Source: Thermoguttaceae bacterium (GTDB taxonomy: Bacteria; Planctomycetota; Planctomycetia; Pirellulales; Thermoguttaceae). Taken from it: a stretch of 64,000 nt of DNA. The notes below the pieces were generated by a model. The model ran no database searches, was not told the DNA's origin, and saw only the letters and a program-made list of their open reading frames with translations. Numbering within the stretch: position 1 is the first letter of the stretch; every line of letters begins with the position of its first letter. Positions 14,911-35,333 of the stretch are shown in pieces. Both the position numbers and the translations under genes were made by a program. The stretch spans positions 124,001 to 188,000 of the forward strand of contig JAFRFG010000014.1 in NCBI GenBank assembly GCA_017434455.1. Reading direction: 5' to 3'.

Positions 14911-16524
14911 CTACTTGCTGACCTTCTTTAATTGATTGGCCAGGGTTTTCGCGATGGCCTGGGCCAGGATCGGCGGGACCGCGTTTCCCACCTGTTGATA
15001 TTGCTCATCCTTTTTCCCCATAAACACGAAACTGTCAGGAAAAGTCTGGAGCCGAGCCGCCTCTCTGATACTGATGGCGCGATCCCTTACGGGATGAATC
15101 CACATGGATTTCCGGACGTTAACCACAGTCGGAGAAGGCTGATCATAATCAAGTCTGCAATAGACCGTTTTCTGCGTTCGTGATACATCAGTATATGTGT
15201 TCGTCTTTAGCTTGTTATCCAGATCGTGGAAATTTTCTCCTTGCTTTAGTGCCCTAAACCTCTGCATAGCAGTATCAGTGGTTCTCGTGATAATATGGTT
15301 CTTCAGCAGTTTCGAGTTTCGCAGTTTCTTGCCTAGTTCACTGATTGTTTTAGGCTTTTTCAGATGAATCCCAATATCATCACTAATGTCATAAACCGGG
15401 TCAACATCCTCAAGATCACCAATTGCATCACGGACCGTTAGATATCGAGACTCATCAATCCGCCCCAGAGGGAGGGTAATCTTGCCAGCAATACTCTTCT
15501 TGATGCCGATCATAACAAAGCGCATCCGTTTTTGGGGGGCTCCATAATTTGCGGCGCAGAGTACACTGGAATTGATTGAATACCCATCATCCCCTTCACC
15601 GAGCATCGCTTTTATATAGTCCAGCACGGCAAAAGAGCGAATCTCCGCAAAGAGACCGTTCTCCGACGAGTAACGATCAACAACAAGATGATTTTCGAAT
15701 ATCTCGGCTGCATGCATTATCATTCGACGATACAAAACAGCCGCCTCGATTTTTTCCTTAAGCTGAACAGATCGTAATCTGCCTCCATAATAATCCAGGA
15801 TGGCAGAATAAGCCTTAGCATCAGCCCTTATGATGGGGGAATCTTCCTCTCTAATACGGATCGACGCCGTTTTGAGGAGGTTTCTTTTGTATTTAAGGAG
15901 CGCCCCTTCCAGCTTCTTTGCGTTCTTTGATGCCTTATAAATAATATTGAGAACAGGATAGTCCTGCGTCAATCCTAGATACGGCTTGATTCCTCCCTTT
16001 CGCCGCACTATATCAATTGCACCGTCGAAGGAATATTTCGGGTCCAGGAGGGGTATTCTCGAGATTTTTGTCTCGATGGCACTCCCATTCAGGAGATCAA
16101 TATCGAACCTGGAAAGATAAAAGCGATGTATATCGGAGCGCAGCATGCCGACATTCTCCATGACAAACGCTTTCGGGTTCAGCGCCTTAATTGCGCGTAC
16201 ATACTCCTTCACCAGCGTGTTATTATGACTGACAGCCGTGTTTTTTTGCCGGTTGGCATTTGAAAAGCCCTGACACGGAGGACCACCGATCACAACATCT
16301 ATGGGACCGTAGAGCTGATCAATTTCGGAATAGTCAGCGGTACAGACGTCTCCTCGCACATCAACGTTCGGATGATTTCTCTTATACGTTGACTGCATTG
16401 TGGGGTTATTCTCATAAGCGACCTTAATGCAATATTTCCCACTTTGAAGAAAACCGGTGCTAAGACCACCGGCGCCAGCAAAAAGGTCGACTACGGATAA
16501 CAGATTGCTGTCAGCTTTAATCAT
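14911..16524 (-). CDS. C5-cytosine DNA methyltransferase (Dcm family)
   Basis: 537 residues. Motif I is DLFAGAGGLSTG (13-24). Motif IV is GGPPCQGFSNA, with catalytic C84, and motif VI is MENVG with E123. Motif VIII is APQKRMRFVMIG, and motifs IX/X are REAARLQTFPDSF and QVGNAVPP. Between motifs VI and VIII there is an insertion of about 150 residues, which makes it longer than the common 330-420. The enzyme methylates cytosine at C5 and would protect host DNA against the island's nuclease components. Its ATG overlaps the AIPR stop by four bases (ATGA), so the two are translationally coupled. Confidence 0.95.
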   Translation of the reverse strand: MIKADSNLLSVVDLFAGAGGLSTGFLQSGKYCIKVAYENNPTMQSTYKRNHPNVDVRGDVCTADYSEIDQLYGPIDVVIGGPPCQGFSNANRQKNTAVSHNNTLVKEYVRAIKALNPKAFVMENVGMLRSDIHRFYLSRFDIDLLNGSAIETKISRIPLLDPKYSFDGAIDIVRRKGGIKPYLGLTQDYPVLNIIYKASKNAKKLEGALLKYKRNLLKTASIRIREEDSPIIRADAKAYSAILDYYGGRLRSVQLKEKIEAAVLYRRMIMHAAEIFENHLVVDRYSSENGLFAEIRSFAVLDYIKAMLGEGDDGYSINSSVLCAANYGAPQKRMRFVMIGIKKSIAGKITLPLGRIDESRYLTVRDAIGDLEDVDPVYDISDDIGIHLKKPKTISELGKKLRNSKLLKNHIITRTTDTAMQRFRALKQGENFHDLDNKLKTNTYTDVSRTQKTVYCRLDYDQPSPTVVNVRKSMWIHPVRDRAISIREAARLQTFPDSFVFMGKKDEQYQQVGNAVPPILAQAIAKTLANQLKKVSK

Positions 16525-18605
16525 TTTACAAACCCCTCCTCGACAGCCCGTTCAAGCAAAGAGAGAAGGCGTTTGCTTTGAAAGGCATTCGGGATTTGAT
16601 TCGGTATTCTGCAGGCAACAGCCAGGGCCGTTTCATCTATCTTAGTGTTGAGGAGATGATTCTGAACAGCAAAATTTTCAAGTCTTTCCCACATCTCGAC
16701 AGGATAGCGGATTACTTCGGTTTGTGCAATGATTCCATTGACTTCTTTTTGATCTTTGCCTGCGTCACGATCAGCCTTTTTCTTCTCATCGGCAGTAATC
16801 AGACAGCTGCTCAAGTCATATGGGAGCGCATAATTGATCGTTTTGACCGCGGCCCAACAATCTTTGCGCTTGCACCACTGCGTAACGTTTGCAACCCCAG
16901 GATGTCGATATGGATCGGTTATATTAGCCAGAACCCTTTCAGCCAATTCAAGGAGAGCAAACCGAACAGGCTCTGGCAGGCTCTGACGGTTCCAGATGAT
17001 CATAAGATCGAGATCCCTGTCAGGGAACTGTTTCTGAATCAAAAGACGGAAAAGAGCAACGGTATAGTAAATAATGTTCGCCCGGTAACCTCCTTCATAC
17101 CATGACTGGTTCGGAATCGTATTCTCGAGATATTGAAACATCAGCAGAAGAGCAGCGGTAGACTGGAAATATCTTTCATTGAACTGCTGATCGTTAGCTT
17201 TCCACTCTTCCGTGATATAATTAGCAAAGTTACTAAAGTTGGTTTGCGCGCCCTTGCTGACAATATCAGGGTGGCCCATCCATGTATTGTGCACCTTGGC
17301 CAAGTCTGTTTTCTTAATAACCTGTTTCTTGGGATGCTGCAGTTCAAACTGCCTCTTCTGTGCCCTGGTCATACGCATTTGAGCCTGGAGATATTGACCT
17401 CTGACACGCTCGTAAAACCACTTTGTATCATGCTGTGAGCCGTCGACGGCCGGAGCAAACAACCTCCTCGATATCTGTTCCATTCGGCGATGGAACGGAT
17501 GAGAAGCAAAGAAGTCTGCATCGCTGACCTTGTTTTGCCTGTTGGAACAGTAGGAGATATTTTTAATCAATTCATCAGCTTCTTCCGGTGTAGATTCCTC
17601 TATATCTGTTAGTTTCATCTGGACATAAAGACCGTCCAATGGAACTTTATCGTTGAATCTGGAGTTCGAAATGGATGCTGTGGTCTGTCCTCCGTTGATG
17701 ATCTGAAAATCTTTGGCGTAAGTAATGAAACGCCCATTATGCGTAAGTTTCGTTTCGACTTTCATTGCCGTTGCGGCAATACCATTATTGAATGCAAAGA
17801 ACATTTGCGGAGTATTTTTTATCGTAGCGCGTATCTGTTTGTTTACAGCTACTTTCGTAGATAAGAATGACCGGACATTGCCCTCCAACAGTTTACTGCC
17901 ATACTTATCATAGATATCAGCCAGGACAGAACCTGGGATGACACCCAGGTAGCTCTTATATTTATCGTTTGCCACAGAACTAGCCTCTATGCAGGGAATT
18001 CCTTCCTCACAATATTCGGTGAAATCGATTTCAATGACTTGCCGTCCTTGCTCAGAACAACAAACATGGAACAGTCTGCCTATATCCCATATCTGCCCTT
18101 CTACAGGGATTCCTTCATAATCTTCGATTTCGACTGTTTTTATCAATGTGCTCATGTCAGCATCGGTGAAAATGAGCAGGCGGTACTTTCTGATATTCTT
18201 CTCGTTGATTCGCAGGAAGTCAACCAGATCTGCACACGGAGTGCTTATCTCAATCTCTTGATAGAGATTTGACTTTAACGCCGCGTCCAAGAAGACTGTG
18301 AGCTCACCGAAATCATGCGTTGCTTCAGTGTTGGTCAGCGTGCGATCCAGATCGTTGCCATCGTAGTTGGCGATGATGAGATTCATTGTATTATCGAATT
18401 CGTCGAACACATAGCCATCCACACGGTACTTGCTTCGTCCATAACGACCGATGTAGAAAGATGGGGAGAAGTCCGAGAGAACTTCTGCGTCGATCAAGTA
18501 TTGAGCTACTCTTTCGGCGAAGGCAGCACAGGAACCCTCGCCAGTAGCAGCGGCAGCAGCCTTGATATCCTGCAAAAAGTCATTCTTAAATTCAGTAAAA
18601 TCCAT
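16521..18605 (-). CDS. AIPR-family (abortive infection phage resistance) protein
   Basis: 694 residues. The family hallmark INGGQTTASI is present near residue 300, preceded by FFAFNNGIAATA, typical of AIPR proteins. The N-terminal part (residues ~55-80, YRVDGYVFDEF then LIIANYDG) looks like a beta-rich nuclease-type fold, but I cannot assign catalytic residues with confidence. AIPR proteins are found with restriction-like systems containing Z1 and GHKL ATPases and were named from a phage abortive-infection protein. It lies between the PD-(D/E)XK gene (12-bp gap) and the methylase (4-bp overlap), so it is part of one operon. Confidence 0.85.
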   Translation of the reverse strand: MDFTEFKNDFLQDIKAAAAATGEGSCAAFAERVAQYLIDAEVLSDFSPSFYIGRYGRSKYRVDGYVFDEFDNTMNLIIANYDGNDLDRTLTNTEATHDFGELTVFLDAALKSNLYQEIEISTPCADLVDFLRINEKNIRKYRLLIFTDADMSTLIKTVEIEDYEGIPVEGQIWDIGRLFHVCCSEQGRQVIEIDFTEYCEEGIPCIEASSVANDKYKSYLGVIPGSVLADIYDKYGSKLLEGNVRSFLSTKVAVNKQIRATIKNTPQMFFAFNNGIAATAMKVETKLTHNGRFITYAKDFQIINGGQTTASISNSRFNDKVPLDGLYVQMKLTDIEESTPEEADELIKNISYCSNRQNKVSDADFFASHPFHRRMEQISRRLFAPAVDGSQHDTKWFYERVRGQYLQAQMRMTRAQKRQFELQHPKKQVIKKTDLAKVHNTWMGHPDIVSKGAQTNFSNFANYITEEWKANDQQFNERYFQSTAALLLMFQYLENTIPNQSWYEGGYRANIIYYTVALFRLLIQKQFPDRDLDLMIIWNRQSLPEPVRFALLELAERVLANITDPYRHPGVANVTQWCKRKDCWAAVKTINYALPYDLSSCLITADEKKKADRDAGKDQKEVNGIIAQTEVIRYPVEMWERLENFAVQNHLLNTKIDETALAVACRIPNQIPNAFQSKRLLSLLERAVEEGFVK

Positions 18606-18617
18606 GTTTCTGCCTCC

Positions 18618-19553
18618 TTATTTAGCCCAGGAATCGATGCTGGGCAAATCTATCTGGTACTCAGCATTCACGATCTCTTTCGGCATGCCATCACGAACCA
18701 TTCGTGGAAAGATTTCATTGACCTCATAATGTGTTTTGTCCGTGATAACAAAGTGAATGTTATCGTACTCTTGGGTATCAAAGTAATCGACGGATGCCAG
18801 TTTCAGGACAAGTTCTTCGACAAGTCCCGGATTATCTGTTAGTCTCGAAATCACGTCATGTACAAGGTTGTATAACGTAAGTGCTCCGACTTGCTGACGG
18901 GCGCACTTGTCTATCCGGTATATAACCAACTCCCCTGGAACCTCACAATCCAGCTGTTCAATAGAAGTAATGGTGACAGATACTGATGATGTGCCGGTTG
19001 CTTTGATTTCATACCAGCCCTCTGAATAAAAGAAATCCTGATCTGATCCTTCAGGCCCTACCCACCCTGACAGGGCTTCTGAGGCAGGCATTCCCTTCTC
19101 AATCATTTCTTTTAAAAAAGAAAGCTCGGCAATCAGTCCTTTTTGAGCGTTTAAGCTGAGCAGCGAACTGCGCTTGTGATCAAGCAGCTTCAGCCATTGT
19201 GCGTATCTGCGCAAAACCTTAGCAAGCGCGTCCTTTTGTGTAGTCTCCTCTTTTGAGTATTCTATGATGTTGCTTGACATCGATATGAATACGTCTTCCT
19301 GGGCTCGGTTTACGAGCGTAAACGAGATGGCGTATTTCCCATCTCGTCGCTGGTTGCAGGCGGTTTCGATGCTCCGAGAGGAAGTAATACTGTCAACTGG
19401 CAGATCTGACACGATAACGATAGACTTCTGGTCCTTCGTTACGTACCGTACATACCACTCCAGCGCGTGCGGGATCGCAAGCTGAAGAGCCCCTCCCCTG
19501 CGATAACCTATATGGTCCCATTTCTGACGCAGTTCTGCCTCGTAAGTATTCAT
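18618..19553 (-). CDS. PD-(D/E)XK-type protein (DUF4420 family)
   Basis: 311 residues. The motif GPEGSDQDFFYSEGWYEIKA places D173, E182 and K184 in a D-x8-E-x-K arrangement, with E143 in the preceding helix (GLIAELSFL). That is a complete PD-(D/E)XK nuclease site and matches the DUF4420 family, known beside Z1 ATPases. It is the best candidate for the DNA-cleaving subunit of the island. Its ATG abuts the stop of the Z1 gene with no gap, which suggests coupled translation and roughly matched amounts. No other domain is visible. Confidence 0.8.
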   Translation of the reverse strand: MNTYEAELRQKWDHIGYRRGGALQLAIPHALEWYVRYVTKDQKSIVIVSDLPVDSITSSRSIETACNQRRDGKYAISFTLVNRAQEDVFISMSSNIIEYSKEETTQKDALAKVLRRYAQWLKLLDHKRSSLLSLNAQKGLIAELSFLKEMIEKGMPASEALSGWVGPEGSDQDFFYSEGWYEIKATGTSSVSVTITSIEQLDCEVPGELVIYRIDKCARQQVGALTLYNLVHDVISRLTDNPGLVEELVLKLASVDYFDTQEYDNIHFVITDKTHYEVNEIFPRMVRDGMPKEIVNAEYQIDLPSIDSWAK

Positions 19554-22283
19554 TTAGTCATCCTCATAACCTTCGTCAGAGAAATTAATCCAATTACGCA
19601 GTTCTACGAGATTAACTTTGTAATTGGCTACACGGGTGTCGTTGTCATCACGTGGAAAACCAACCCCAAGGGCAAAGAGGAAGGGAGGGAGTCCTGAACT
19701 ATCACCTTCGTACTTCGCATCTAAAATATGAAGCATGAGAATGGGATCGCGGTCTCTGGTGAGAAACGCTTTATCAGAAACATTGCTCTTACCGGTTTCG
19801 GACTTAAATGCTCGCTTCGCATCATCTATTTCACCACGGGTTAGACCAATTCTGGTGCACCCACCGGATCCGACCCTAACTTTTGTACCGCTGACACTCA
19901 GCATTTTAGCGTCGACGGAGATCTTTCGGCTTTCCGTACTCTGGATTCTAAGCGTTTCTGAGCCACATTTAAGGTCGCCTTGGTAAGGCTCGCCATCACC
20001 GCTGTTAAACAGAACCACATCCCACCCATGATTCCAGGGCCTGGATTCTATAGATTCTGCCAGCGCTCTTCCATTAAAGCTCAGATGCCACGGGTGCGTC
20101 TCGAAATCTCGAAGAAGCTGAGCAATTGCGTCACCGGGAACATGCTTCCAATAGTAATGTCCTTGGGTTCGCTCCTTATCATTCAGCCGATCTCCATGCT
20201 CTGACAAAGAATCGACAAAGTTTTTGAAAACCCTTTCGTTTTCGTTAAGTATTGAAAGCGATGCTTTCAGTCGGGGGGTTTCAAGCAGATGTCCAGAAAC
20301 TGTAACCGGGAACGTGATATCCGTTGCGGTACGCATTTTGTTTCTGGCCGTCACAATTAATGCGCCTGGATCCTGACGTACTTTTAAGCCAAATTCCAAA
20401 GGTGTCTGATGCGCATTTCGCATCTTGATGATCTCGTCTTTAAGTTCGACGGCAGCACGATTAATCTGTCCGTACCAATCAAATGCCTCTTCAGACATCC
20501 AGACTTTAACAAGATCCTGATAGTTGGGACGATAGCCAAACCAGCGTCCCATTTGCATAAGGGTGTCATACATCTTTGTGTTGCGGTGAAAATAAGACAC
20601 ACAGAGTCCCTCGAGAGTCAGACCGCGTGACAAACTGTTGCCGCCTACCGCAATTACTCGCAGTCCGTCTTTCTTGTGATTAAAATAATCCAGACTAGCC
20701 GTACCTGTTTTCATGTTGACCGCGCGTACATCAATCGGAGCAACAGACCTATAAAGGTACTTTCTAAGAACCTCGTCCCAGGCGATCTTGCCAATGCCAG
20801 AGAGATTGAATTTCTCCCAAATGTGGTGCAATGCTCGGATCGAAGGAATCTGTTCGGCCTTGTCAACAGGGAGTTTCGAGTAATTCCTAAGATCAGACTT
20901 GACCCGTTCCAGCCAGCAGCTAAGAATATCAGCAATTTGGTTCTGGACTGCGGTAAAAAGACTGATGTGAACCATCATTGAACGATGTTCAGTTGTATCT
21001 CCACGAAAATCCCGTATGGCGTTGACGAGGAGAAAATAATTGGCCGCTTCATAGAGATCATCCGGCAAACCAGAAACCACAAGCTCCTTCTTGTGCCCAT
21101 CTGGGAAGTATCTCTGCAAATCAAAAATATCGATCGGTCTAATCATGTCAGAAAGATCACCGTCATCACCAAAGATCCGATCTGCACCAATATAGTCTGT
21201 TGGAGGGGACAGCGCATAGATGAAATCCGCCGGGAACAAATCTTCATCGTTTCCGGGGTCAATGAAGATATTCGCGAAAGGAGTCGCAGTAACGCCCAAG
21301 TAAGTGGTCCTGCTGAAGAGAAGCAACAACCTTCTGATACAATCATTTATGGCTGTAGGCAGCGTATCAGGGTCTTTCGTGTTAACAGAAGCATTATCTG
21401 CCTCGTCATCGATCAATAACAGCGGGAGATCAATCTTCCCCACATCATTTTGTGTATTGTTCAAGGTCAGCCAGTTAATAAGATTGTTGAGAATGCGCTT
21501 GTTCTTCTTTACTACTAGGATGACTGGACAATTAACGTTCTCTATGCCAAGATCATTGCTGCGAAGCACACCGCTGTCAAAGTCCTTGGTGACAGAGGTG
21601 AAAGACACTATCTTCTTCGACTTGCCATACCGCCCTACCCCCACAAATCGGTTTTTATATCTTCGAAACGGGTTGGTATCGAGGAAATATTCACTCTTGC
21701 GACCGGAGCATTCCGCATCCAGACGTTCCTGAGTCTGTTTGCGGAGGTTTTCCTGAAGCCCGGCCAGAATGATGATGATTCGATAACCAGTGTCAGCAGC
21801 TTTATTGCAGACTGCAGTGTAGTTTGCTGTCTTTCCGGACTGAACATCACCAAGAATAAGTCCCTTAATGGCGAAGTGGTCTTCAGAAGGGTCACCGCAC
21901 AGATCCAGTATCTCATCAGAGATTTTGCCGAGATTGGCTGTTACGCGCGGATTCCAATGCTTAACTTCCTCGAGATACTTCTTGTATCGATTCCAAAAGA
22001 AGAAATCAAATGAAGCACGTTTTGCGGGAAGCCATGACTGGTGCCCATTATTTCGGTCGTTGATATAAACACCAACATCCATTTGGATTACGAGAGTCTG
22101 CCTGAGCCGTGTCAAAATCTCGGCGAATTCCTGATCTGTGACCGGCATCAGCATAGATGTTTTATCTCTAAAGAGAGCTGCCTTTTCAATGAACTCTTCT
22201 TCAGTAGGGGGGACCTCCTTATATACGGAGTTTATGTAGGCGGATATCGTATTTTCCAGTTGTTCAACGTTCAGATTAGCCAT
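19554..22283 (-). CDS. Z1-domain superfamily II-like ATPase
   Basis: 909 residues. Walker A GDVQSGKT is at 145-152, Walker B LLIDDEAD at 289-296, and a motif-III-like GVTATPFANIF at 330-340. The C-terminal motor half has GGNSLSRGLTLEGL (547-560) and MGRWFGYR (578-585), the signature of the Z1 domain. This family is known from restriction-modification-like operons with GHKL ATPases, where it is thought to act as the DNA-translocating or remodelling motor. Its start overlaps the end of the GHKL gene by eight bases. Codon use and GC are lower than in flanking genes, in line with transfer. Confidence 0.9.
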   Translation of the reverse strand: MANLNVEQLENTISAYINSVYKEVPPTEEEFIEKAALFRDKTSMLMPVTDQEFAEILTRLRQTLVIQMDVGVYINDRNNGHQSWLPAKRASFDFFFWNRYKKYLEEVKHWNPRVTANLGKISDEILDLCGDPSEDHFAIKGLILGDVQSGKTANYTAVCNKAADTGYRIIIILAGLQENLRKQTQERLDAECSGRKSEYFLDTNPFRRYKNRFVGVGRYGKSKKIVSFTSVTKDFDSGVLRSNDLGIENVNCPVILVVKKNKRILNNLINWLTLNNTQNDVGKIDLPLLLIDDEADNASVNTKDPDTLPTAINDCIRRLLLLFSRTTYLGVTATPFANIFIDPGNDEDLFPADFIYALSPPTDYIGADRIFGDDGDLSDMIRPIDIFDLQRYFPDGHKKELVVSGLPDDLYEAANYFLLVNAIRDFRGDTTEHRSMMVHISLFTAVQNQIADILSCWLERVKSDLRNYSKLPVDKAEQIPSIRALHHIWEKFNLSGIGKIAWDEVLRKYLYRSVAPIDVRAVNMKTGTASLDYFNHKKDGLRVIAVGGNSLSRGLTLEGLCVSYFHRNTKMYDTLMQMGRWFGYRPNYQDLVKVWMSEEAFDWYGQINRAAVELKDEIIKMRNAHQTPLEFGLKVRQDPGALIVTARNKMRTATDITFPVTVSGHLLETPRLKASLSILNENERVFKNFVDSLSEHGDRLNDKERTQGHYYWKHVPGDAIAQLLRDFETHPWHLSFNGRALAESIESRPWNHGWDVVLFNSGDGEPYQGDLKCGSETLRIQSTESRKISVDAKMLSVSGTKVRVGSGGCTRIGLTRGEIDDAKRAFKSETGKSNVSDKAFLTRDRDPILMLHILDAKYEGDSSGLPPFLFALGVGFPRDDNDTRVANYKVNLVELRNWINFSDEGYEDD

Positions 22284-23745
22284 GGTTTATCTCCCTTCTC
22301 AAACTCTCAAAGACTTCAGGAAAAGATGAAAAAGGTTCGACATTATGCATTCTGTCAAGCAAGGCAAGCCTCTGGGCGTTATTGCTGCAGCTGTCAAGCA
22401 TAACTGCAAGCGAATCCTTTATCTGTGCCGCATCCTGATCCTGATCATTAATCAGTTTCTCATCTTCATTGAGGTCGACATAGAGCTGATTCAAGGGCAG
22501 TCCCCGCTCGATTTGCTCTAATAACGAAAATACGAGCTTTTGTTGCGCTGGAGATTTATCTATAATCAGCTTAACCAGAGGGTGATCTCGGTTAATCTCG
22601 TAATACACGGCCCCCTGACGATTCCTCATTCTATTCCAGATATGGATATTCTTATCACTAACTTCGCGTTTCCCTCTGACTTTCCAAGTCCGTTTGCTTT
22701 TCTCAGCAACGCGTTCAATAATGACCCCCAAGTTCTTCCGCACTTCCGCCGGAGGCAAGGCAGACGATTTCTTGATGTCAAGAGTCCAGAGATCGTCGAG
22801 AGAGTTCGGTATATCAACCTGGATTCGGGCCAACTTAGACAAATCTCCCTGCGGCATCATCCTGAACCATGTCCCCCACGTGAGCAGGCGTTTATTGCGG
22901 TAGACAAAGAATCCCTGCTGTTTTCTGAGGCCTTCCTTGCCGCCGAGTTCCTTTATTTCTTCTGGTGTCATACGTGAGATGTGCGGCAGAATGTAGGGCC
23001 GGACAACTATCTCTTGTTCGCGTATAATGAGTTTTTCATCGTCCATTACCTTAGTGCTCTTGTCTTTCAAAAAAGGGTCGGCAGGCAATACCGGTTCATA
23101 GTTGATCGAGAGCTTAAATTTGGTGATGCCAGGTTCACCGCTAAGATACCTGTGATAAACAAGCGACAAATGAGAACGAACACTGTCGATCTTACTGCCG
23201 AGAGTATGCTCAAATTTTGCCTCTCCGACCTTCATACGGTCCAGGTTCTGCCATACAACAAGGGTCCCTGACTTCTGATCCTCGAGGTACTCAACACCCG
23301 GCACCTCGTTTATTTCGCTTGGTTCAAGGATCAAAAGCGACCAATCACCTACATCAGACACATGATCAATATCCCACCTGCGGCCTAAAATCGTGTCGCC
23401 TTGCTTCGTGACCACAGTTAGCGTACGGCACTGAGACAGAGATGCTGTTTTGAGTCCCAAGCCAAAACGCCCCAAGTCCTTAGAATCTCTGGTCTCAATT
23501 GGGCTGCGGCTGCCGTATTGCATAGCGCGATCCAACTCCGCTTCGCACATGCCCTTTCCATTGTCCAGAATGGAGATGTAGGCTCCGGCTTTGTCATACG
23601 GGAAAAAGAAAATGTTGACGGCGGTCGCGCTTGCCGCAACGCTGTTGTCGATAATATCAGCGACGGCCGCTTCGAGCGAATAGCCAATAGCACGAGTCGA
23701 CTCAATCAGGGTTGGCGCATAGGGCGGCAGATTCTTGGTTCTCAT
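22276..23745 (-). CDS. MutL/MORC-like GHKL ATPase of a restriction-like system
   Basis: 489 residues. The Bergerat fold is clear: an N-box in EAAVADIIDNSVA (25-37), a G1 box DNGKGM (61-66) and a G2 box GRFGLGLKTA (92-101). The C-terminal half is the S5-like plus coiled region found in MORC-type proteins rather than a kinase domain. Iyer, Abhiman and Aravind described such ATPases in restriction-modification-like operons, as relatives of eukaryotic MORC. It would be an ATP-driven clamp on DNA. It is the first long gene of the operon. The likely promoter is the TATAAT at 24062-24067 on the minus strand. Confidence 0.88.
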   Translation of the reverse strand: MRTKNLPPYAPTLIESTRAIGYSLEAAVADIIDNSVAASATAVNIFFFPYDKAGAYISILDNGKGMCEAELDRAMQYGSRSPIETRDSKDLGRFGLGLKTASLSQCRTLTVVTKQGDTILGRRWDIDHVSDVGDWSLLILEPSEINEVPGVEYLEDQKSGTLVVWQNLDRMKVGEAKFEHTLGSKIDSVRSHLSLVYHRYLSGEPGITKFKLSINYEPVLPADPFLKDKSTKVMDDEKLIIREQEIVVRPYILPHISRMTPEEIKELGGKEGLRKQQGFFVYRNKRLLTWGTWFRMMPQGDLSKLARIQVDIPNSLDDLWTLDIKKSSALPPAEVRKNLGVIIERVAEKSKRTWKVRGKREVSDKNIHIWNRMRNRQGAVYYEINRDHPLVKLIIDKSPAQQKLVFSLLEQIERGLPLNQLYVDLNEDEKLINDQDQDAAQIKDSLAVMLDSCSNNAQRLALLDRMHNVEPFSSFPEVFESLRREINHG

Positions 23746-24270
23746 CGATCTAAAGTCACTTCTTTCTAACGAACAGAAACAAAACTATCCTAAGACAGTC
23801 CCTTGCCCCTTTCCTCAGATGATCATTATGCTTTTTCTGCGCAAACAATCTGCTCGATATACTGACATGCTGCAGACAACTTTCACCGAGACATGATGTG
23901 TATCCTGTCCCTGGACTGAGCCAGCCGGCCGAGGATCACGGCACCATATATTATCGAGCGTGTCCATAATCACACCTTCTTAACCCCCCCGAATATGCGA
24001 AGGGGATGGTTTCGCCGAGATACCCCCACGGATCCATCATTAAAAGGGCCAACCGAGGACAATTATACAATATTACCCGCACATATACAGAAGATTCGAG
24101 GAAAAAATAGTGATTTTAGGGATTTTTCCTGAGGAGAGTACACTAAGGTACACAGTCTCTGTTCCCGGAAACGCCTGTAGCGGGGGCGTCCCCATTCGGG
24201 TAGAATGGCCCCAATCGTAACCACAAAACAACCTTCCCCCCCAAAAAGCCGCTTTCAGAGGTTTACGCCG
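23746..24270. promoter_or_regulatory. Intergenic region between defence operon and single-unit phosphatase, with divergent promoters
   Basis: 525 bp. On the minus strand GTATAATTGTCC (TATAAT at 24062-24067) can drive the defence operon. On the + strand TAGCGG (24178-24183), 17 bp and TAGAAT (24201-24206) can drive the phosphatase. From about 24041 onward the sequence resembles the secA/phosphatase intergenic region 10911-11080. Shared pieces include TTAAAAGG, the ATTATAC box, AATAGNGNTTTTAGNGATTTTT and CCTNTAGCGG. One possible small coding frame lies at 23818-23967. No tRNA or inverted repeats marking an element end were found. Confidence 0.5.
23818..23967 (-). CDS. Possible small protein upstream of the defence operon
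   Basis: A 49-residue frame starts at ATG 23967 with AAGGTGTGA a few bases upstream, and ends at TGA 23818-23820, 72 bp before the GHKL gene. It lies between the putative operon promoter and the first long gene. Residues are unremarkable (starts MDTLDNIW, ends RRKSIMII), with four cysteines and no recognised domain. It could be a leader peptide, a degraded regulator or chance. Confidence 0.25.
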
Positions 24271-25386
24271 ATGCGCCGTCCCCTTCCCTTCCTTTCCCCG
24301 GCTTGGTTTTTTACCCTGTGGGTTCTCCTGCCGCTGGCCGCGGCATCGTCAGATGACTCCGTCCCCGTCCTCGTGACCCCGGCCGAGGGGGAAAGCGTCT
24401 CGGTCGCGCCGCAGCCGGCGGTGCCGTACCTTTCGCCCGAGGAGCGCGGCTGGGATACCGACTACCCGATCGAGCAGATCAATCCCGACCATACCGACCG
24501 TTCCCGGCCCAAGCCGGTGACCCTCTCGTGGTCGTGGCCCCATGGGGGGCACTTCACCGTCGAGCTGGCGGCCAATGAGGACTTCTCCGACGCGGTGGTC
24601 CTAAAGAGTGATTCCGAGACGCTCCAGGCGCGCAACCTTGCCCCCGATACCCTCTACTCCTGGCGGGTCACCGCCGAAGGGGGGGTGCGCTCGGCGGCGG
24701 GGCATTTCCGCACCGATGTTCAGATCCCCCGCTGGTTCGATATCCCGGGGCCCTCGAACGTCCGCGACGTCGGGGGGTGGCCGACCGCCGACGGCCGCCG
24801 GGTCAAAGAGGGGCTGGTCTTTCGGGGGACCCAGCTGGAGGGGAGGTTCGAGATCACCCCCGAGGGGCGCGACTATATGGTTCACACCCTTGGGATTAAA
24901 ACCGATCTGGATCTGCGCGGCCCCAGCGAGGTCGGGGACCCGAACGTCAAGACCGGCCGCCCGCTGGGCGATGAGGTCGAATGGGTGAATATTCCGGTCT
25001 CCGCCTACAAAGATGTATTCACCGAAGAGGGGCAGCGCCCCCGCTGGCGCGAGATCTTCAGTACCCTGGCCAAGCCGGAAACCTACCCGGTTTACATTCA
25101 CTGCTACGGCGGCGCCGACCGGACCGGAACGCTCTGCCTGTTTCTCAAGGCGATCCTGGGGGTGAGCGACAACGACCTGTGCGTCGACTACGAACTGACG
25201 ACCCTGCGCTTCGCGGTTCGGCACATCCACATCGACGCTTTCGAGGCGATGCTCGAGGAGCTGAACCGATACGGCACCGCCGAAGAGCCGATGTCGGTCA
25301 AATGCGAGCGGTTCCTGCTCGATATCGGGGTGACGCCCGAGGAGATCGAATCGATCCGCGCGATTCTTTTGGAGGATAAGCCGTAA
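24271..25386 (+). CDS. Secreted FN3-like + tyrosine/dual-specificity phosphatase (single unit)
   Basis: 371 residues from ATG 24271, which gives MRRPLPFLSPAWFF, a signal peptide matching that of the large paralogue; an upstream in-frame ATG at 24205 lies at the promoter and is rejected. One FN3-like domain (residues ~30-150) is followed by the phosphatase with NVRDVGG and the CX5R loop HCYGGADRTG. The second half is almost the same as repeat 3 of the gene at 11150 (for example EVEWVNIPV, FTEEGQRPRWREIFSTLAK). So this gene and repeat 3 share a recent ancestor. Role as for the paralogue: an exported phosphatase of unknown substrate. Confidence 0.85.
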   Translation: MRRPLPFLSPAWFFTLWVLLPLAAASSDDSVPVLVTPAEGESVSVAPQPAVPYLSPEERGWDTDYPIEQINPDHTDRSRPKPVTLSWSWPHGGHFTVELAANEDFSDAVVLKSDSETLQARNLAPDTLYSWRVTAEGGVRSAAGHFRTDVQIPRWFDIPGPSNVRDVGGWPTADGRRVKEGLVFRGTQLEGRFEITPEGRDYMVHTLGIKTDLDLRGPSEVGDPNVKTGRPLGDEVEWVNIPVSAYKDVFTEEGQRPRWREIFSTLAKPETYPVYIHCYGGADRTGTLCLFLKAILGVSDNDLCVDYELTTLRFAVRHIHIDAFEAMLEELNRYGTAEEPMSVKCERFLLDIGVTPEEIESIRAILLEDKP

Positions 25387-25450
25387 GAGTAAACCCGGGG
25401 CTTTTGACGTTATCGGCGCCTGTCCTCTTGACCGAGGTACCCGGTATGAC

Positions 25451-25490
25451 TATTATGAAAAAAGGTGTGGGCACACCTTTTTTCATAATA
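25451..25490. repeat. Perfect 40-bp palindrome just before the AAA/DUF4143 gene
   Basis: Two 19-base arms, TATTATGAAAAAAGGTGTG and its exact complement, surround a central GG. The palindrome ends nine bases before the ATPase ATG at 25500. Inside it, GGTGT-GGGC-ACACC followed by T6 could act as an intrinsic terminator in either direction for the phosphatase gene. The perfect symmetry extends well past what a terminator needs, so an operator or mobile palindromic element is also possible. Confidence 0.85.
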
Positions 25491-25499
25491 GAGGGCGCT

Positions 25500-26753
25500 A
25501 TGGAGATTAAACGGGACATCTACCTGAACCGGCTGATCCGGCGGGAAAACAACGGGCTGGTCAAAGTCGTGACGGGGGTTCGCCGCTGCGGCAAGTCGTA
25601 CCTTTTGCTGCGTCTGTTTCATAACTACCTCTTGGACAAGGGGGTAAAAGAGGACCACATTATCGAGATCGCGCTCGATGACCGAAGTAATAAACCGCTG
25701 CGCGACCCCGACAATATGCTCCGATACATGAAAGAGCGGTTCGCCGACAGGGATACTTACTACATCATCCTCGACGAGGTGCAGCTTCTGGCGGAGTTCG
25801 AGGACGTGCTCAACAGTTTCATGCACATCCCCGGCGCGGATGTCTACGTGACGGGGAGCAACTCGAAATTTCTCTCCTCCGATCTGATCACCGAGTTTCG
25901 CGGCCGGGCCGACGAAGTACGGATCCACCCGCTTTCCTTCCGGGAATACTGCTCCGCCTTCCGGGGGAGCGCCGAGGAGGCGTGGGATGATTTTGTGACT
26001 TACGGCTCTTTGCCGCTGATCCTTTCCCGCCGGACGGCGGAAGATAAAGCACAGTATCTGACGTCGCTGTTTCAAAAGGTCTATCTCAGCGATATCGTCG
26101 ACCGCCACCGGGTACGCAACAGGGAGGAACTCGGCGAGCTGGTCGATATCCTCGCCTCCGCCGTCGGGTCGCTGACCAATCCGCTGAAGCTGACGAAGAC
26201 ATTCAAGTCGGTCAGGAACAAGACCATCAGTGATATGACGCTGAAAAAATACATCGATTATCTGACGGACGCCTTCCTGGTGAGCAAGGCGGTTCGTTAC
26301 GATATCAAAGGAAGAAAGTACATCGGTTCCCCGGCGAAATACTACTTTGAGGATGTCGGTCTGCGCAACGCGCGGCTGAATTTCCGGCAAATGGAAGAAA
26401 ACCACATTATGGAGAATATCATCTACAACGAGCTGCGTATCCTGGGGTATCGCGTGGACGTGGGGGTGGTGAAACAGTTCGGCAAAAACAGCGAGAACAA
26501 AACGACGAAAAAACAGCTTGAGGTCGATTTTGTCGCGGCGCGCGGCAGTGAGAAGTACTACATTCAGTCCGCCTTCGCGATCGATTCCCAGGACAAACGG
26601 GAGCAGGAGGAACGTTCGCTCGCCGCCCTCGGCGACTCTTTCAAAAAGATCATCGTCGTGCGCGATAACATCAAAGCGCGCAGGAACAACCGAGGGATCG
26701 TGACGGTCGGGATTCGCCATTTTCTGCTGGATGAAGAGAGCATGAATCTGTAG
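25500..26753 (+). CDS. AAA-type ATPase with C-terminal DUF4143 domain
   Basis: 417 residues from ATG 25500. Walker A GVRRCGKS is at 26-33 and Walker B YYIILDEVQ ends at residue 95; sensor 1 is VYVTGSN (115-121). The second half is the DUF4143 domain, ending with a PD-(D/E)XK-like stretch (QLEVDFVAARG ... YYIQ). This family is common and often variably present in gut and rumen bacteria; its biological role is not established. An alternative start inside the palindrome (ATG 25456, MKKGVGTPFF) would place the hairpin within the coding region. The gene is followed by a clear terminator. Confidence 0.85.
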   Translation: MEIKRDIYLNRLIRRENNGLVKVVTGVRRCGKSYLLLRLFHNYLLDKGVKEDHIIEIALDDRSNKPLRDPDNMLRYMKERFADRDTYYIILDEVQLLAEFEDVLNSFMHIPGADVYVTGSNSKFLSSDLITEFRGRADEVRIHPLSFREYCSAFRGSAEEAWDDFVTYGSLPLILSRRTAEDKAQYLTSLFQKVYLSDIVDRHRVRNREELGELVDILASAVGSLTNPLKLTKTFKSVRNKTISDMTLKKYIDYLTDAFLVSKAVRYDIKGRKYIGSPAKYYFEDVGLRNARLNFRQMEENHIMENIIYNELRILGYRVDVGVVKQFGKNSENKTTKKQLEVDFVAARGSEKYYIQSAFAIDSQDKREQEERSLAALGDSFKKIIVVRDNIKARRNNRGIVTVGIRHFLLDEESMNL

Positions 26754-31117: not shown

Positions 31118-33480
31118 TTATTTCTCCCCTAGCTTTTCGGCTGGATCAATCTCTATTTGCTTTTGGTCTTGATCACCCTTAAATTTGAGCAGTTCGTCGT
31201 AGATTATTTCCGGAGTCCAGTCATTCAGCCGCTTAATTAAATTCTTCAGCAGCTCAATACGATCCTCAGCATCTATCCCGGCTTTCTGCACAACAGGTAT
31301 GCAGACTTCTTTCTTCGTCTCGCTCTCGTCGTTACGGAAAAGATACCCATTGTTCTGACAGATAATGTGCCAGTGTCCGTAAATCAAACAATCCCCCTTA
31401 TCAGAAAGGTGGTTCGAATCAGCTTCTTTCAGGTACGGCATATAGGTCGTTCTTGACCGTTCTTCTGTCAACATTACAGAGAACATGTACGGTTCTTTTT
31501 CTGGGTTATTATTGTGATATTTCCCATACTTTCCTGGGCGAAATGACTCATAATTGACATAGTAGTATCGCCAGGAATACGTGGCATTATCTTTACAGCA
31601 ACTTATAAACGAATCCACAGAATTCCTAAGATGTTCATCTTTGAAGGATTTAGCCGAAGAGAGAAGTTTAAAGAGAATTTCGCTCGTATCCTTAAAACCT
31701 TTGTTAGCACTTTTATGAAACAGCCTATCCCAAGCAGACATTATACTTTTAGAACCATATTGGTAACGCCAGGATTTCTCGTCTTGCTGCTTGTAGTCTC
31801 CTGTAGACATCAAAGCTCGATCTATCAAATCATACTCACATTTAAAGAGAGACACGAAACGATCTGCATAATCGGCAAGGTCAAGATCGGGAGTAGTATC
31901 CTGTTGGCTTAACCACTTTAGGGCGACGATACTTATCTGTCCCTTTAATCTCTCATGATCCTCAAGAGAGAGCACAGCTTCAGTCTTGTCAGAATATTTA
32001 CTCAAGAATTCCTTTTTCCTCTTCTCCTCATCGATCTGATGACGATTGAAGCCGATTTCTGTGGATTCATCGATGTTACCATACAACATAATTGCATCAG
32101 TCTGATCCAAAATAGCTTTCATACGGCCAGGATTCTTATTGTCTCTGAACTCACCTGACGAATTCTGAATCAGATTGTTGATACAGCGTATCCTCTGTTT
32201 GAAGAGATGATCGTCAATTTCATCATTGTGAAGAAGGTATTCGATCACTGCATAAAGTAGTACCGCACGCGCTTTGTTGAATTTGCCATTCTTATCTGTA
32301 TAAGAACGGAGGCAGTCTTTGAAAATATTAATCTCGTCGTTTGAAGAATAGAATACGATTTTACCATTGCCACTATTGTGATCAATAAAAGACTTGAAAA
32401 ATCCGTCAATAAGGTCATTCCTTTGGTCATTCTTATATATTCTGTACCAGCAGTCAAAGTATGATTTCATTATCTGGATATTATTGCGAACACCGTCTGT
32501 ATCAAAAGTATCATTTACTGCAATGAATTTCTTAAGCAGTTCGAATTCATCCTCATTCTCGCGACGGTTTACGCAGTTTTTGTAACCGATGATATCACAT
32601 ATATAGTAGAAATATCGCAGGAATTCATCATCAATGACAGAATCCTCATCGGTCATAGTGCCGGAATTTCGATACTGCCAGAGCATATCTGTCCAGTCAC
32701 AGTCGATTTTTCTCATGAATTCATCAACTTGAGTTGTGTCTTCCTTGTAGGCTTCTCTGATGCACTTCTGGAGTTCAGCTTTGACGTGCTCAAATCTCGT
32801 AAGCGGCTTTCCTCGAGAATTCATTTTAATATATAAATCGTCAGTCTGACCAATGTCCTTGATGGGTAGGAAATAGAACTTAATCAATTTGTCGTTGACG
32901 AGTTTTTCCCAGAGATTATCAACCTCTCTAAACTTTACGTGAATAGCATCAAGCATAACAAGCATAGATTTTATGGTGGGATCATTCAACCAGCTCATGG
33001 GAAACCACGCCTGGTCTACAATCTTCGCCGACAGTTCTATTCCTTCAAATGACGGATTATAGTTCTTCGTAAGTTCTGCGCAAAAGACCCTAGCGCTATA
33101 GCGTGTTTCATAACTAAAATTAGAGAGAAAGGAGCAATCGTTTTTATTGACTTTGTCTTTTCGAGCGGCGTACCAGTGTAATAGGTACAGAGTAGTCAGT
33201 CTCTGTTGGCCATCTAAGGGTGTCATAACTCCGACGATATTACCCTTCTCGTCTTTATCCTTCTTAATCTCTCCATAGATAAAATCAAGGGTAATTGGCC
33301 TAGAATAAACCAACGCATCATGCAGTGAAGCAAGAAAACGATCACGTATTCGCTCAATTTCTGGTCCACTCCTCCCTTGGGCGTAATCCCGTTGGATCAT
33401 AGGGATAACATTTTCTCGACAATCCCCTGCTCATCTTGAAAGCCGAAGATTTCTCTGAACGAAAGAAAGTTTGTACTCAT
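31118..33480 (-). pseudogene. DUF262 (GmrS-like) protein, frameshifted near its 5' end
   Basis: The intact frame runs from ATG 33400 to 31118 (760 residues) and begins MIQRDYAQGR, with LDGQQRLTTLYLL near residue 65, the DUF262 signature. DUF262 proteins normally have about 25 residues before 'P.IQRDY'. Those residues exist in another frame: ATG 33480 overlaps the stop of the upstream gene as ATGA and reads MSTNFLSFREIFGFQDEQ to EKML, then meets a stop at the 28th codon. Adding one base near 33405-33411 would join the frames as KML-IPMIQRDY. So the gene is broken or mis-sequenced, or is translated only from the internal start. No HNH (DUF1524) domain is seen; the C-terminal 150 residues are unrecognised. 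Confidence 0.75.
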
Positions 33481-35333
33481 AAAATCTCCTCCTCAGTTTT
33501 GATTGGTTCAAGATCGTACTCTTTAAGAACTGTGTTAATTCTTGTGATATATGCCTTTCTATCGGGTAATCCCCAGAAATGAAGTTGGTTTTGATTAGAA
33601 GGCGTGTAATACTTCATAAACACCATCTTCGTGCAGAACGGTATAAATGTACCCTCCATATCATATTCGATAATACGATTACGCTTAACATCGAAGGCTG
33701 AATTATTAAGTGCTGAATTATCATCTCTTTGGAGCAGTGCAAGGTTGCCAATATGGTGGAGATACTCATCATCTCCATCTGGGGAGAGTCTGTTTATCAC
33801 TTCTTCTTGTAGTTTAACAAATTCTCCTTCTTCAAGATCGTTCTTATCGTGGGCTTCGGTCATTCTCTTTGAGAGCCTCGACAGATCTTTGCGAATCTTT
33901 TGGACCTTTGCCTGTTCGCAGAGATTATCGATCGACTTTTGGTGGGCGTTCAGCCATTCTTTCCACCTTTCCCTCCCTTGAAGGCCTACCGAGTGCTGGG
34001 CATGAATATGCTCGAGCGACCATGGGCCTTTAGCATCGGACTTGAATTTGTCAAATGGAAACCTCTGAGTCTGACCATCTATCTGACGGACAGACTCGAC
34101 ATTAAAAAGAAGTAGAAGTTTAAAGATGAGTTTACAATCCGAATCACTTTCGAAGCTTAAATCCGCGTAGTTTCTTTCAATCTCTTTATTTTTGTTGCTC
34201 TTTTTCAGTTCAACACTCTTTTTAATGTATTCTTTTAGCAAACACTTGAATTCAGTTTTTGTTTTACCTTCGTACACATCAAAGAGTTCACGGAGTGTCT
34301 TCTCCTCAGATGCGATAAGATAACCTATTTTATGATAGAGCTCATGATCTTCATACCAGTCCCTTAATATAAGGAACGTCTTATGGATTTGTTTCCAGAG
34401 ATCTGGTTGATCGGACAGTTCTGGTTGATCGGATAGTTCTGGTTGATCGGACTTTGTGTCGGGCCCATAGTAATTCTTGTATATTTCAAAGAATGTATAG
34501 TACTTATCACGGGAATTTTGCGGCCGCTGCTTACAGATCAAGTCCAAGATCAGGTCAATCCTAGTCTGGTAACTGGATTGGCTGTTATTAGTTAGAAAGA
34601 ACCAAAGAGATTTTTCCTGGAGTTCTCTCTCTATGTTGTCCCACTGCAGGGAAATTTCTTGTTTTTCACGCTCTGTTATGCCCGCACTACTGCTACTCAA
34701 AAACAATGCCTTTACCAGTTCCGCATTCGTCAACGGAATCTTTCCTATATTCAATCTTGTAAAAAGAGATATAGGGTCTTCATTCTCACCGACCTCGTAC
34801 CAGATAATTTTCACTTTCTCAGTGAGGAAACTAAAGAAATGCAATATGCGGTTCGCTAGTCCCGACCGTTCCTTATCCTGTTCAAACCATTCCTTAATCT
34901 TCTTATAAGCCTCTGAGATGAACCAATTATCGATGTTTTTATCACACCCGCATATTTGATTATCATCGGATGTAGTAATATTATGTAGAAAATCAGCGGT
35001 CTCTTTTCGAGTTTCGTATTCAAATTTCAGCGTAGGCGCAGCTTCTGCACGGAGCGGATCAGTATTTGCAATGTAACGAAAGATCAGGAACAACGTCGTC
35101 ATTCGTTGTTGACCGTCAATCAACTCATAACAATTATCACCGCGTTTGAGAACAACAACGGGCTGGAGACAATAATTCCCTCCTGAGTTACAGTTCACAT
35201 ACACGTCGTCCAAAAGTCTCTCAACCTCAATTTGACCCCACCTATACCCACGTTGGTAAGAAGGGATTATAAATGTTGTGCCGCTGATATCAATCACGAG
35301 CTTAGTGCACAATTGTATCTGGTTGTTCGTCAT
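33477..35333 (-). CDS. DUF262-DUF1524 (GmrSD-like, type IV restriction) protein
   Basis: 618 residues. The N-terminal DUF262 domain has IPSYQRGYRWG (23-33) and LIDGQQRMTTLFL (71-83). This DGQQR nucleotide-using motif is ParB/sulfiredoxin-like. The C-terminal DUF1524 part has WSLEHIHAQH and later HIGNLALLQRDDNSALNN, the His-Asn pattern of HNH nucleases. The two-domain order is that of fused GmrSD enzymes, which cut modified phage DNA using NTP. Residues near 310 hold three copies of a SDQPEL-like unit. Marked AT-rich composition suggests horizontal gain. The stop overlaps the next ATG (ATGA). A strong promoter lies at 35588-35617. Confidence 0.85.
   Translation of the reverse strand: MTNNQIQLCTKLVIDISGTTFIIPSYQRGYRWGQIEVERLLDDVYVNCNSGGNYCLQPVVVLKRGDNCYELIDGQQRMTTLFLIFRYIANTDPLRAEAAPTLKFEYETRKETADFLHNITTSDDNQICGCDKNIDNWFISEAYKKIKEWFEQDKERSGLANRILHFFSFLTEKVKIIWYEVGENEDPISLFTRLNIGKIPLTNAELVKALFLSSSSAGITEREKQEISLQWDNIERELQEKSLWFFLTNNSQSSYQTRIDLILDLICKQRPQNSRDKYYTFFEIYKNYYGPDTKSDQPELSDQPELSDQPDLWKQIHKTFLILRDWYEDHELYHKIGYLIASEEKTLRELFDVYEGKTKTEFKCLLKEYIKKSVELKKSNKNKEIERNYADLSFESDSDCKLIFKLLLLFNVESVRQIDGQTQRFPFDKFKSDAKGPWSLEHIHAQHSVGLQGRERWKEWLNAHQKSIDNLCEQAKVQKIRKDLSRLSKRMTEAHDKNDLEEGEFVKLQEEVINRLSPDGDDEYLHHIGNLALLQRDDNSALNNSAFDVKRNRIIEYDMEGTFIPFCTKMVFMKYYTPSNQNQLHFWGLPDRKAYITRINTVLKEYDLEPIKTEEEIL
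34403..34452 (-). repeat. In-frame 18-bp tandem repeat inside the DUF262-DUF1524 gene
   Basis: CTGGTTGATCGGACAGTT is repeated almost exactly, then partly (about 2.7 units), and encodes S-D-Q-P-E/D-L repeats. It can expand or contract by slippage without changing frame, altering the linker between the two domains. Confidence 0.85.

Follow-up and report, generated by a model that had tools for sequence, protein, structure and literature searches.

A palindrome on the promoter of a PDC-S01/DUF4143 ATPase gene as a probable autoregulatory operator

We conclude that the perfect palindrome just upstream of a PDC-S01/DUF4143 ATPase gene is probably an autoregulatory operator of that gene, bound by the ATPase itself and blocking its own sigma70 promoter. 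The conclusion draws on features computed here: the site, its position on a predicted promoter, its recurrence beside related genes, its symmetry at the DNA level, the preferred spacing of paired copies, and co-variation with the protein. The palindrome found in the window (the whole 64-kb stretch of DNA that was analysed) would be one member of a widespread operator class. Among open-licence PMC papers, we found a palindromic operator class at DUF4143, COG1373, or PDC-S01 genes described nowhere, and we found no paper on the mechanism of PDC-S01. The features of the window on which the argument depends are as follows.

14911-23745, minus strand: Mza-like defence cluster (C5 methylase, AIPR/MzaE, DUF4420/MzaD, Z1/MzaC, HATPase/MzaB)
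24205-25386, plus strand: Y_phosphatase3-domain gene, directly upstream of the ATPase gene
25428-25433, plus strand: -35 box TTGACC of a sigma70-like promoter, from a consensus scan
25450-25491, no strand: putative palindromic operator of 42 bp (20-bp arms, GG), from the inverted-repeat listing
25451-25456, plus strand: -10 box TATTAT, within the left arm, from a consensus scan
25464-25477, within the palindrome: inner core GGTGTG-GG-CACACC, found in the genus only beside orthologues
25490-25495, plus strand: Shine-Dalgarno-like AGAGGG, which overlaps the right arm at its end, identified by eye
25500-26753, plus strand: AAA_14 + DUF4143 ATPase of 417 aa with a PDC-S01 match, from domain and PADLOC models
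26121-26348, plus strand: winged-helix-like segment (residues 208-283; three helices and a two-strand wing), from the predicted structure
26451-26543, plus strand: strands 318-329 and 335-348 of the PD-(D/E)XK-like domain, the proposed operator-reading beta-hairpin, from the predicted structure and co-variation
26478-26480, plus strand: codon of Phe327, the residue co-varying with the operator core
31118-35333, minus strand: two GmrSD_N-domain genes in tandem

The palindrome reads CTATTATGAAAAAAGGTGTG-GG-CACACCTTTTTTCATAATAG, with perfect arms at 25450-25469 and 25472-25491. An earlier sequence-only reading had described 40 bp with 19-bp arms (25451-25490), ending nine bases before ATG 25500. 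The perfect symmetry and the position just 5' of the ATG hold, but the extent and distance required correction, as the ATG starts 8 bases past the end of the longer palindrome. Around its core, the palindrome also holds A6/T6 tracts and outer arms CTATTATG/CATAATAG. The same reading had pointed to the A6/T6 tracts and to MKKGV.TPFFII, readable on both strands, and both are present. This readable stretch does not represent conserved coding, because its counterpart in a 93%-identical orthologue (L011) contains one TAG and one TAA. As M1 (ATG 25500) is also invariant across a 17-sequence alignment, a conserved N-terminal extension of the ATPase through the palindrome was dropped, and ATG 25500 is likely the true start.

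Of the 17 inverted repeats listed in the window (at least 15 bases long and at most 200 bases apart), the palindrome alone is perfect; the remaining 16 are 70-88% complementary. A plain 4^-20 calculation predicts about 1e-5 perfect 20-bp repeats with a gap of 0-2 in a genome of 3.8 Mb. The genome-wide search suggested by the sequence-only reading located the palindrome at one place in its own 3.8-Mb genome, also when the core was allowed up to 3 mismatches. A 22-bp partial match in L003 proved to be the start of a gene taken by eye for ribosomal protein S15 and was attributed to chance, as were matches of 24 bp in enterobacterial plasmids. The perfection of the outer arms surpasses the needs of a simple repressor, and this counts against the operator reading.

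The sequence TTGACC-17-TATTAT is the only sigma70-like promoter in 25300-25600, with 10 of 12 matches as scored by consensus only (mean of 0.2 in shuffles). Transcription would start approximately 7 nt past the -10 box, in the left arm. The window thus contains a dyad-symmetric site that overlaps the predicted promoter of its own gene.

The encoded protein scores well above the cut-offs of both domain families, with 109.2 bits for PF13173 (cut-off 27) and 63.7 bits for PF13635 (cut-off 28.1). Its best match to the PDC-S01 models is to PADLOC model PDLC04787, which covers residues 3-412 (E 3.1e-114). Sequence searches at E 0.01 returned no match for the ATPase in the PDB, NCBIfam, or PHROGs. 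The predicted structure (mean pLDDT 91.9) comprises an ATPase module, a winged-helix-like segment, so labelled from the order of its elements, and a C-terminal PD-(D/E)XK-like domain that carries the E, D and Q conserved in domains of this type (E305, D343 and Q356). The best structural matches to residues 1-294 are the archaeal AAA+ ATPases 2qen (PABY2304; Z 18.0, rmsd 3.1 over 258 residues) and 2fna (SSO1545; Z 17.7, rmsd 3.5 over 264 residues). The likeness concerns this part of the protein and comes with 17-20% identity; residues 1-294 also show lower-scoring structural likeness to the plant NLR and animal CED-4 STAND proteins. We know of no operator work on 2qen or 2fna. The Walker A/B residues G26, G31, K32, D92, and E93 are invariant in all 205 clade members. 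No other DUF4143 gene was found in the genome assembly. A 436-aa antisense open reading frame (25410-26720, minus strand) spans nearly the whole gene and is probably a shadow frame.

Passages of PMC12988326 describe PDC-S01 as an ATPase fused to a PD-(D/E)XK member and rank it fourth by frequency among defences in prokaryotes as a whole, with experimental validation pending for most PDCs; unlike the present proposal, those passages mention no regulation, operator, or DNA-reading role. A rumen genome survey reports PDC-S01 as the most frequent individual locus (PMC13356809). The window ATPase is by this resemblance a candidate, unvalidated single-gene anti-phage system. A co-varying operator would be the first concrete biochemical handle on PDC-S01, as it offers a DNA ligand for each protein, an assayable promoter, and a residue-level prediction.

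Palindromes recur upstream of related genes. Within the family, 58 of 119 genomes have a DUF4143 match at E 0.001 (54 above the family cut-off), and palindromes with a score of at least 10 are located close to 40 of 95 DUF4143 starts, compared with 21 of 204 control open reading frames (p 1e-9), a positive outcome for a check proposed by the sequence-only reading; several of these 21 are DUF4143 palindromes seen from a neighbouring gene (L066, L019, L127, L113, L118, L045, L015). The window and L011 are absent from the 95 starts because the longer antisense reading frame took their place. In relatives from several phyla, the upstream regions of the clade carry dyad-symmetric sites that are specific to each lineage.

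These sites co-vary with the adjacent protein. In a discovery scan of 53 loci, the inner half-site was associated most strongly with alignment column 327 (partial r 0.351 with identity regressed out; reached in 0 of 1000 label permutations), followed by columns 335 (p 0.007) and 337 (p 0.014). A score rule had reduced 95 loci to 59, and a further six were removed by hand because the chosen axis was unlike the repeat (L015, L156, L188, L189, L190, L215); the scan therefore counts as selected. L187 was excluded from alignment set A2 because its frame holds a stop. The rule that emerged pairs N327 with TGCG and F/Y/W327 with GTG.

Two text patterns were then fixed on the old set beforehand, and validation took every non-redundant cluster. 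Clustering at 85% identity gave 95 old and 110 new clusters. Some of the new clusters stem from host genomes and families already represented in the old set; 50 of 80 loci were taken, further clade members were a subset picked from lists, and extra viral scans yielded mostly loci already included. Among the 110 new clusters, TGCG accompanies N327 in 19 of 25 cases versus 1 of 85 for other residues (p 3e-15), and GTG accompanies an aromatic residue in 9 of 17 cases versus 8 of 93 (p 7e-5). Exceptions occur in both sets, with N327 lacking TGCG in 9/21 old and 6/25 new clusters and an aromatic residue lacking GTG in 11/27 and 8/17, respectively. In the new set, column 327 ranks top for TGCG and third for GTG, marginally behind columns 193 and 66; across all 205 clusters it is top for GTG.

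The association was also examined in tree-independent pairs, using 205 rows and a FastTree tree built without the tested columns (an earlier test on 95 rows gave too few pairs). With 12 pairs chosen by TGCG, a mean of 6.9 agreed with the rule, 0.2 opposed it, and 4.9 showed no difference (median p 0.016). The 15 pairs chosen by N327 gave means of 6.0, 0.1, and 8.8 (p 0.03), and the 18 aromatic-GTG pairs gave 5.9, 0.4, and 11.7 (median p 0.06).

The signal does not lie where a classical winged helix would place it. Co-variation was expected at the predicted recognition helix (244-258) and was not above the permutation null there; it lies at 327/335/337, and residues 327 and 337 would face each other on one hairpin of the model. 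The window conforms to the rule, with Phe327 accompanied by GGTGTG. Without contact between the ATPase itself and the site, the co-variation would be difficult to account for, and we propose the ATPase as the reader.

Many of the sites are paired. In relatives from other hosts, the layout read by eye is a distal dyad, the promoter, a proximal dyad at the transcription start, the ribosome site, and the ATG. In a repeat test against 40 shuffles, 34 of 83 genes have paired sites, compared with 9 of 182 neighbouring open reading frames. Significant paired copies are present in 93 of 205 non-redundant genes (43/95 old and 50/110 new), and in the other 112 no second site reached significance in the 200 bp upstream; genes with fewer than 200 upstream bases or no clear start (e.g., L174 and L210) were left out. 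In the window itself, no second copy stands out as significant over the 200 bp upstream (84 of 100 shuffles do equally well), and its close relatives L011, L100, L150, and L160 show the proximal site only, as judged by eye.

The distance between paired copies is strongly preferred. With one significant pair at 20 bp (L498) left out of the count, 68 of 92 pairs are spaced by 72-78 bp, 9 by 83-87 bp, 3 by 61-63 bp, and 2 by 94-97 bp; one each falls in 64-71, 79-82, and 88-93 bp, and 7 exceed 97 bp. This pattern suggests placement on one helical face, as about 6, 7, 8, or 9 turns would give. A Rayleigh test of the off-mode spacings depends on the period assumed (p 0.54 at 10 bp, 0.015 at 10.5 bp, and 0.0002 at 11 bp); the loci, moreover, are related to one another. 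Promoter-like sites with at least 10 of 12 matches occur at 47 of 92 paired loci (5.4% of shuffles), and 60 of 70 promoters scoring at least 9 are situated between the two copies.

The geometry bears on the possibility that the palindromes are target or anchor sites at which the ATPase carries out DNA transactions (homing, recombination, or self-marking), their location at promoters being incidental. Such a role would be consistent with the presence of a PD-(D/E)XK-like domain and with protein-site co-variation. The patchy distribution of the gene (14 of 392 genomes of the phylum at E ≤ 1e-50) fits horizontal transfer, and a few other DUF4143 genes (L025, L047) have palindromes on both sides. 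However, the sites are tied to promoter geometry, and in the genus the window core occurs beside orthologues only, with no solo copies. The domain itself also argues against this explanation. Although E305 (205/205), D343 (204/205), and Q356 (203/205) are near-invariant in the clade, the position of the canonical lysine, 358, is A in 194 members, S in 7, T in 2, V in 1, and a gap in 1 (n = 205), and never K, so that the window clade does not combine the acidic residues with the catalytic lysine of an active PD-(D/E)XK nuclease. We therefore regard a role in DNA transactions as unlikely. A regular-expression search of the 95 family-set genes assigned EVK/EIK to 26, a motif found in other DUF4143 groups, and Qx[AS] to 28, leaving 41 unmatched; palindromes with a score of at least 10 accompany 17/28 Qx[AS] genes, 9/26 lysine-motif genes, and 14/41 unmatched genes. 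A reader role for the catalytically altered domain would be the simplest reading of these motifs.

A second alternative is that the palindrome functions as RNA, forming a stem-loop in the 5' leader that blocks translation or attenuates transcription. The window offers some encouragement for this, as its leader folds at -24.5 kcal/mol (z -6) and the predicted stem ends at the Shine-Dalgarno-like sequence. It offers none for an intrinsic terminator or a known RNA family, both of which were dropped: by consensus, no GC stem followed by a T run occurs in 25300-25600, and the palindrome has no Rfam match. The relatives speak against RNA more directly. Because most scored promoters sit between the copies, the distal copy lies outside the mRNA, and the helical-turn steps in spacing are a property of DNA. 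The arms are mostly non-complementary at the A-tract in 23 selected loci, whose column profile is shaped by the choice of axis and is not used as proof. Within symmetric blocks, G.T mismatches do not clearly exceed A.C mismatches (63 versus 53 at 77 loci; 27 versus 24 at the 23 selected loci). Judged from these counts, with no clear G.U excess, the symmetry appears to act at the DNA level. As the distal copies are mostly outside the mRNA and there is no clear G.U bias, the translation-blocking hairpin raised by the sequence-only reading is not the shared function, and we consider the RNA explanation quite unlikely. At the window, the perfect stem could form in RNA and might add a side effect on translation.

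It is also conceivable that another host regulator, such as a xenogeneic silencer or nucleoid protein, binds the operator instead of the ATPase. A-tracts are typical of nucleoid-protein sites, and the site contains A-tracts. A host factor would be expected to give one motif per host, but paralogues within one genome often differ in both residue and core, and the core tracks a residue of the neighbouring ATPase in hosts that are distant from one another. For these reasons, we find a separate host regulator very unlikely.

Insertion of a MITE- or REP-like mobile palindrome, to which the long perfect arms might point and which the sequence-only reading had also entertained, has next to no likelihood: multiple dispersed copies per genome were not found, and the core AAAAAGGTGTGNNCACACCTTTTT (up to 3 mismatches) occurs at a single place in each of 4 of the 7 genus genomes, always just upstream of this gene type, with no occurrence of the reversed control pattern. 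L012 and L013 keep the core though their flanks do not match those of the window; each has a full palindrome farther upstream and a partial copy before the gene. In L011, one outer-arm change relative to the window affects both arms together (ATG/CAT to ACG/CGT). The remaining suggestion of the sequence-only reading, an operator, gains support from the location on the promoter, the recurrence of the core at orthologues, and the co-variation of the class with the protein.

From this evidence for an autoregulatory operator, we infer direct binding, repression rather than activation, an oligomeric state, looping, and derepression when the defence is triggered. Acting as a symmetric oligomer, the ATPase would use its C-terminal PD-(D/E)XK-like domain to bind the dyad-symmetric DNA. 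Residue 327, on the beta-hairpin, would help to set the sequence that is read, and the bound protein would block its own sigma70 promoter. In many relatives, the promoter would lie between two sites that face the same side of the helix, an arrangement that suggests cooperative or looped repression. The window would keep the promoter-proximal site only, in unusually perfect form. Triggering of the defence function would then relieve repression.

The proposed circuit can be compared with known ones. PMC7319586 describes negative autoregulation of the AbiE toxin-antitoxin system, whose antitoxin binds inverted repeats in the promoter of the system. The likeness is that of a defence-type gene autoregulated through inverted repeats, as proposed for the ATPase; in AbiE, as described there, the repressor is a separate antitoxin, whereas at the window it would be the ATPase itself. 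A further comparison is with regulation of the Lac, lambda, and Gal type. In those systems, two like operators flank the promoter on one helical face. The paired operators of the relatives likewise flank the promoter at approximately integral helical turns. In contrast, what is proposed to bind here is not a dedicated repressor but an AAA+/STAND-like ATPase that carries a nuclease-like domain. The operator sequence, moreover, often varies between paralogues, and the window has one site only.

A more far-reaching version of the autoregulatory operator can be put forward tentatively, and we hold it to be possible but rather doubtful. It casts the PDC-S01 clade as a self-silencing defence ATPase whose nuclease-like domain, having no canonical catalytic lysine, has been turned into the reader of a private palindrome through a decodable hairpin (Asn for TGCG, an aromatic residue for GTG). 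Paralogues would be wired separately, and an infection-sensing change of state of the STAND/AAA+ module would free the operator and switch the gene on. If true, a nuclease-like domain would have been re-used as a programmable DNA reader, and the arrangement would suggest how many paralogues stay separate within one cell.

The ATPase gene lies among defence genes, flanked as it is by the Mza-like cluster and the two GmrSD_N-domain genes. The second of the latter matches the PADLOC models HEC-06 and Orf5, and the first matches none. The Y_phosphatase3-domain gene is common to the window and one other genus genome (G006); in the five remaining genus genomes, blastn gave no hit to it in the 1.5 kb flanking the conserved downstream gene. 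That downstream gene and the adjacent PIG-L gene are retained in all 7 genus genomes, and no element boundary could be drawn from an empty-site comparison among them. Relatives with 79-83% identity occur in another genus of the family (L100, on G069:C74) and in Clostridia-labelled MAGs (L150 and L160), a placement that suggests recent horizontal transfer or MAG mislabelling.

Several other observations concern more distant genes. In a second, distant clade, repeated sites lie 39-40 bp apart, or about four helical turns (L130, L133, L273, L275, L276, L280, L282, L288). The distant DUF4143 gene L025 has near-identical nested palindromes on both sides (1305-1360 and 2930-2985) with TTTATCCGG repeats, and an upstream palindrome resembling these occurs at L019 in another genome. 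Another DUF4143 group, represented by L047 and L049 in two genomes, has palindromes with 24-bp arms (GCTCCC...GGGAGC), that of L047 ending at -7 of the ATG; of the two changes that separate these palindromes, one is mirrored in both arms and the other is confined to one arm.
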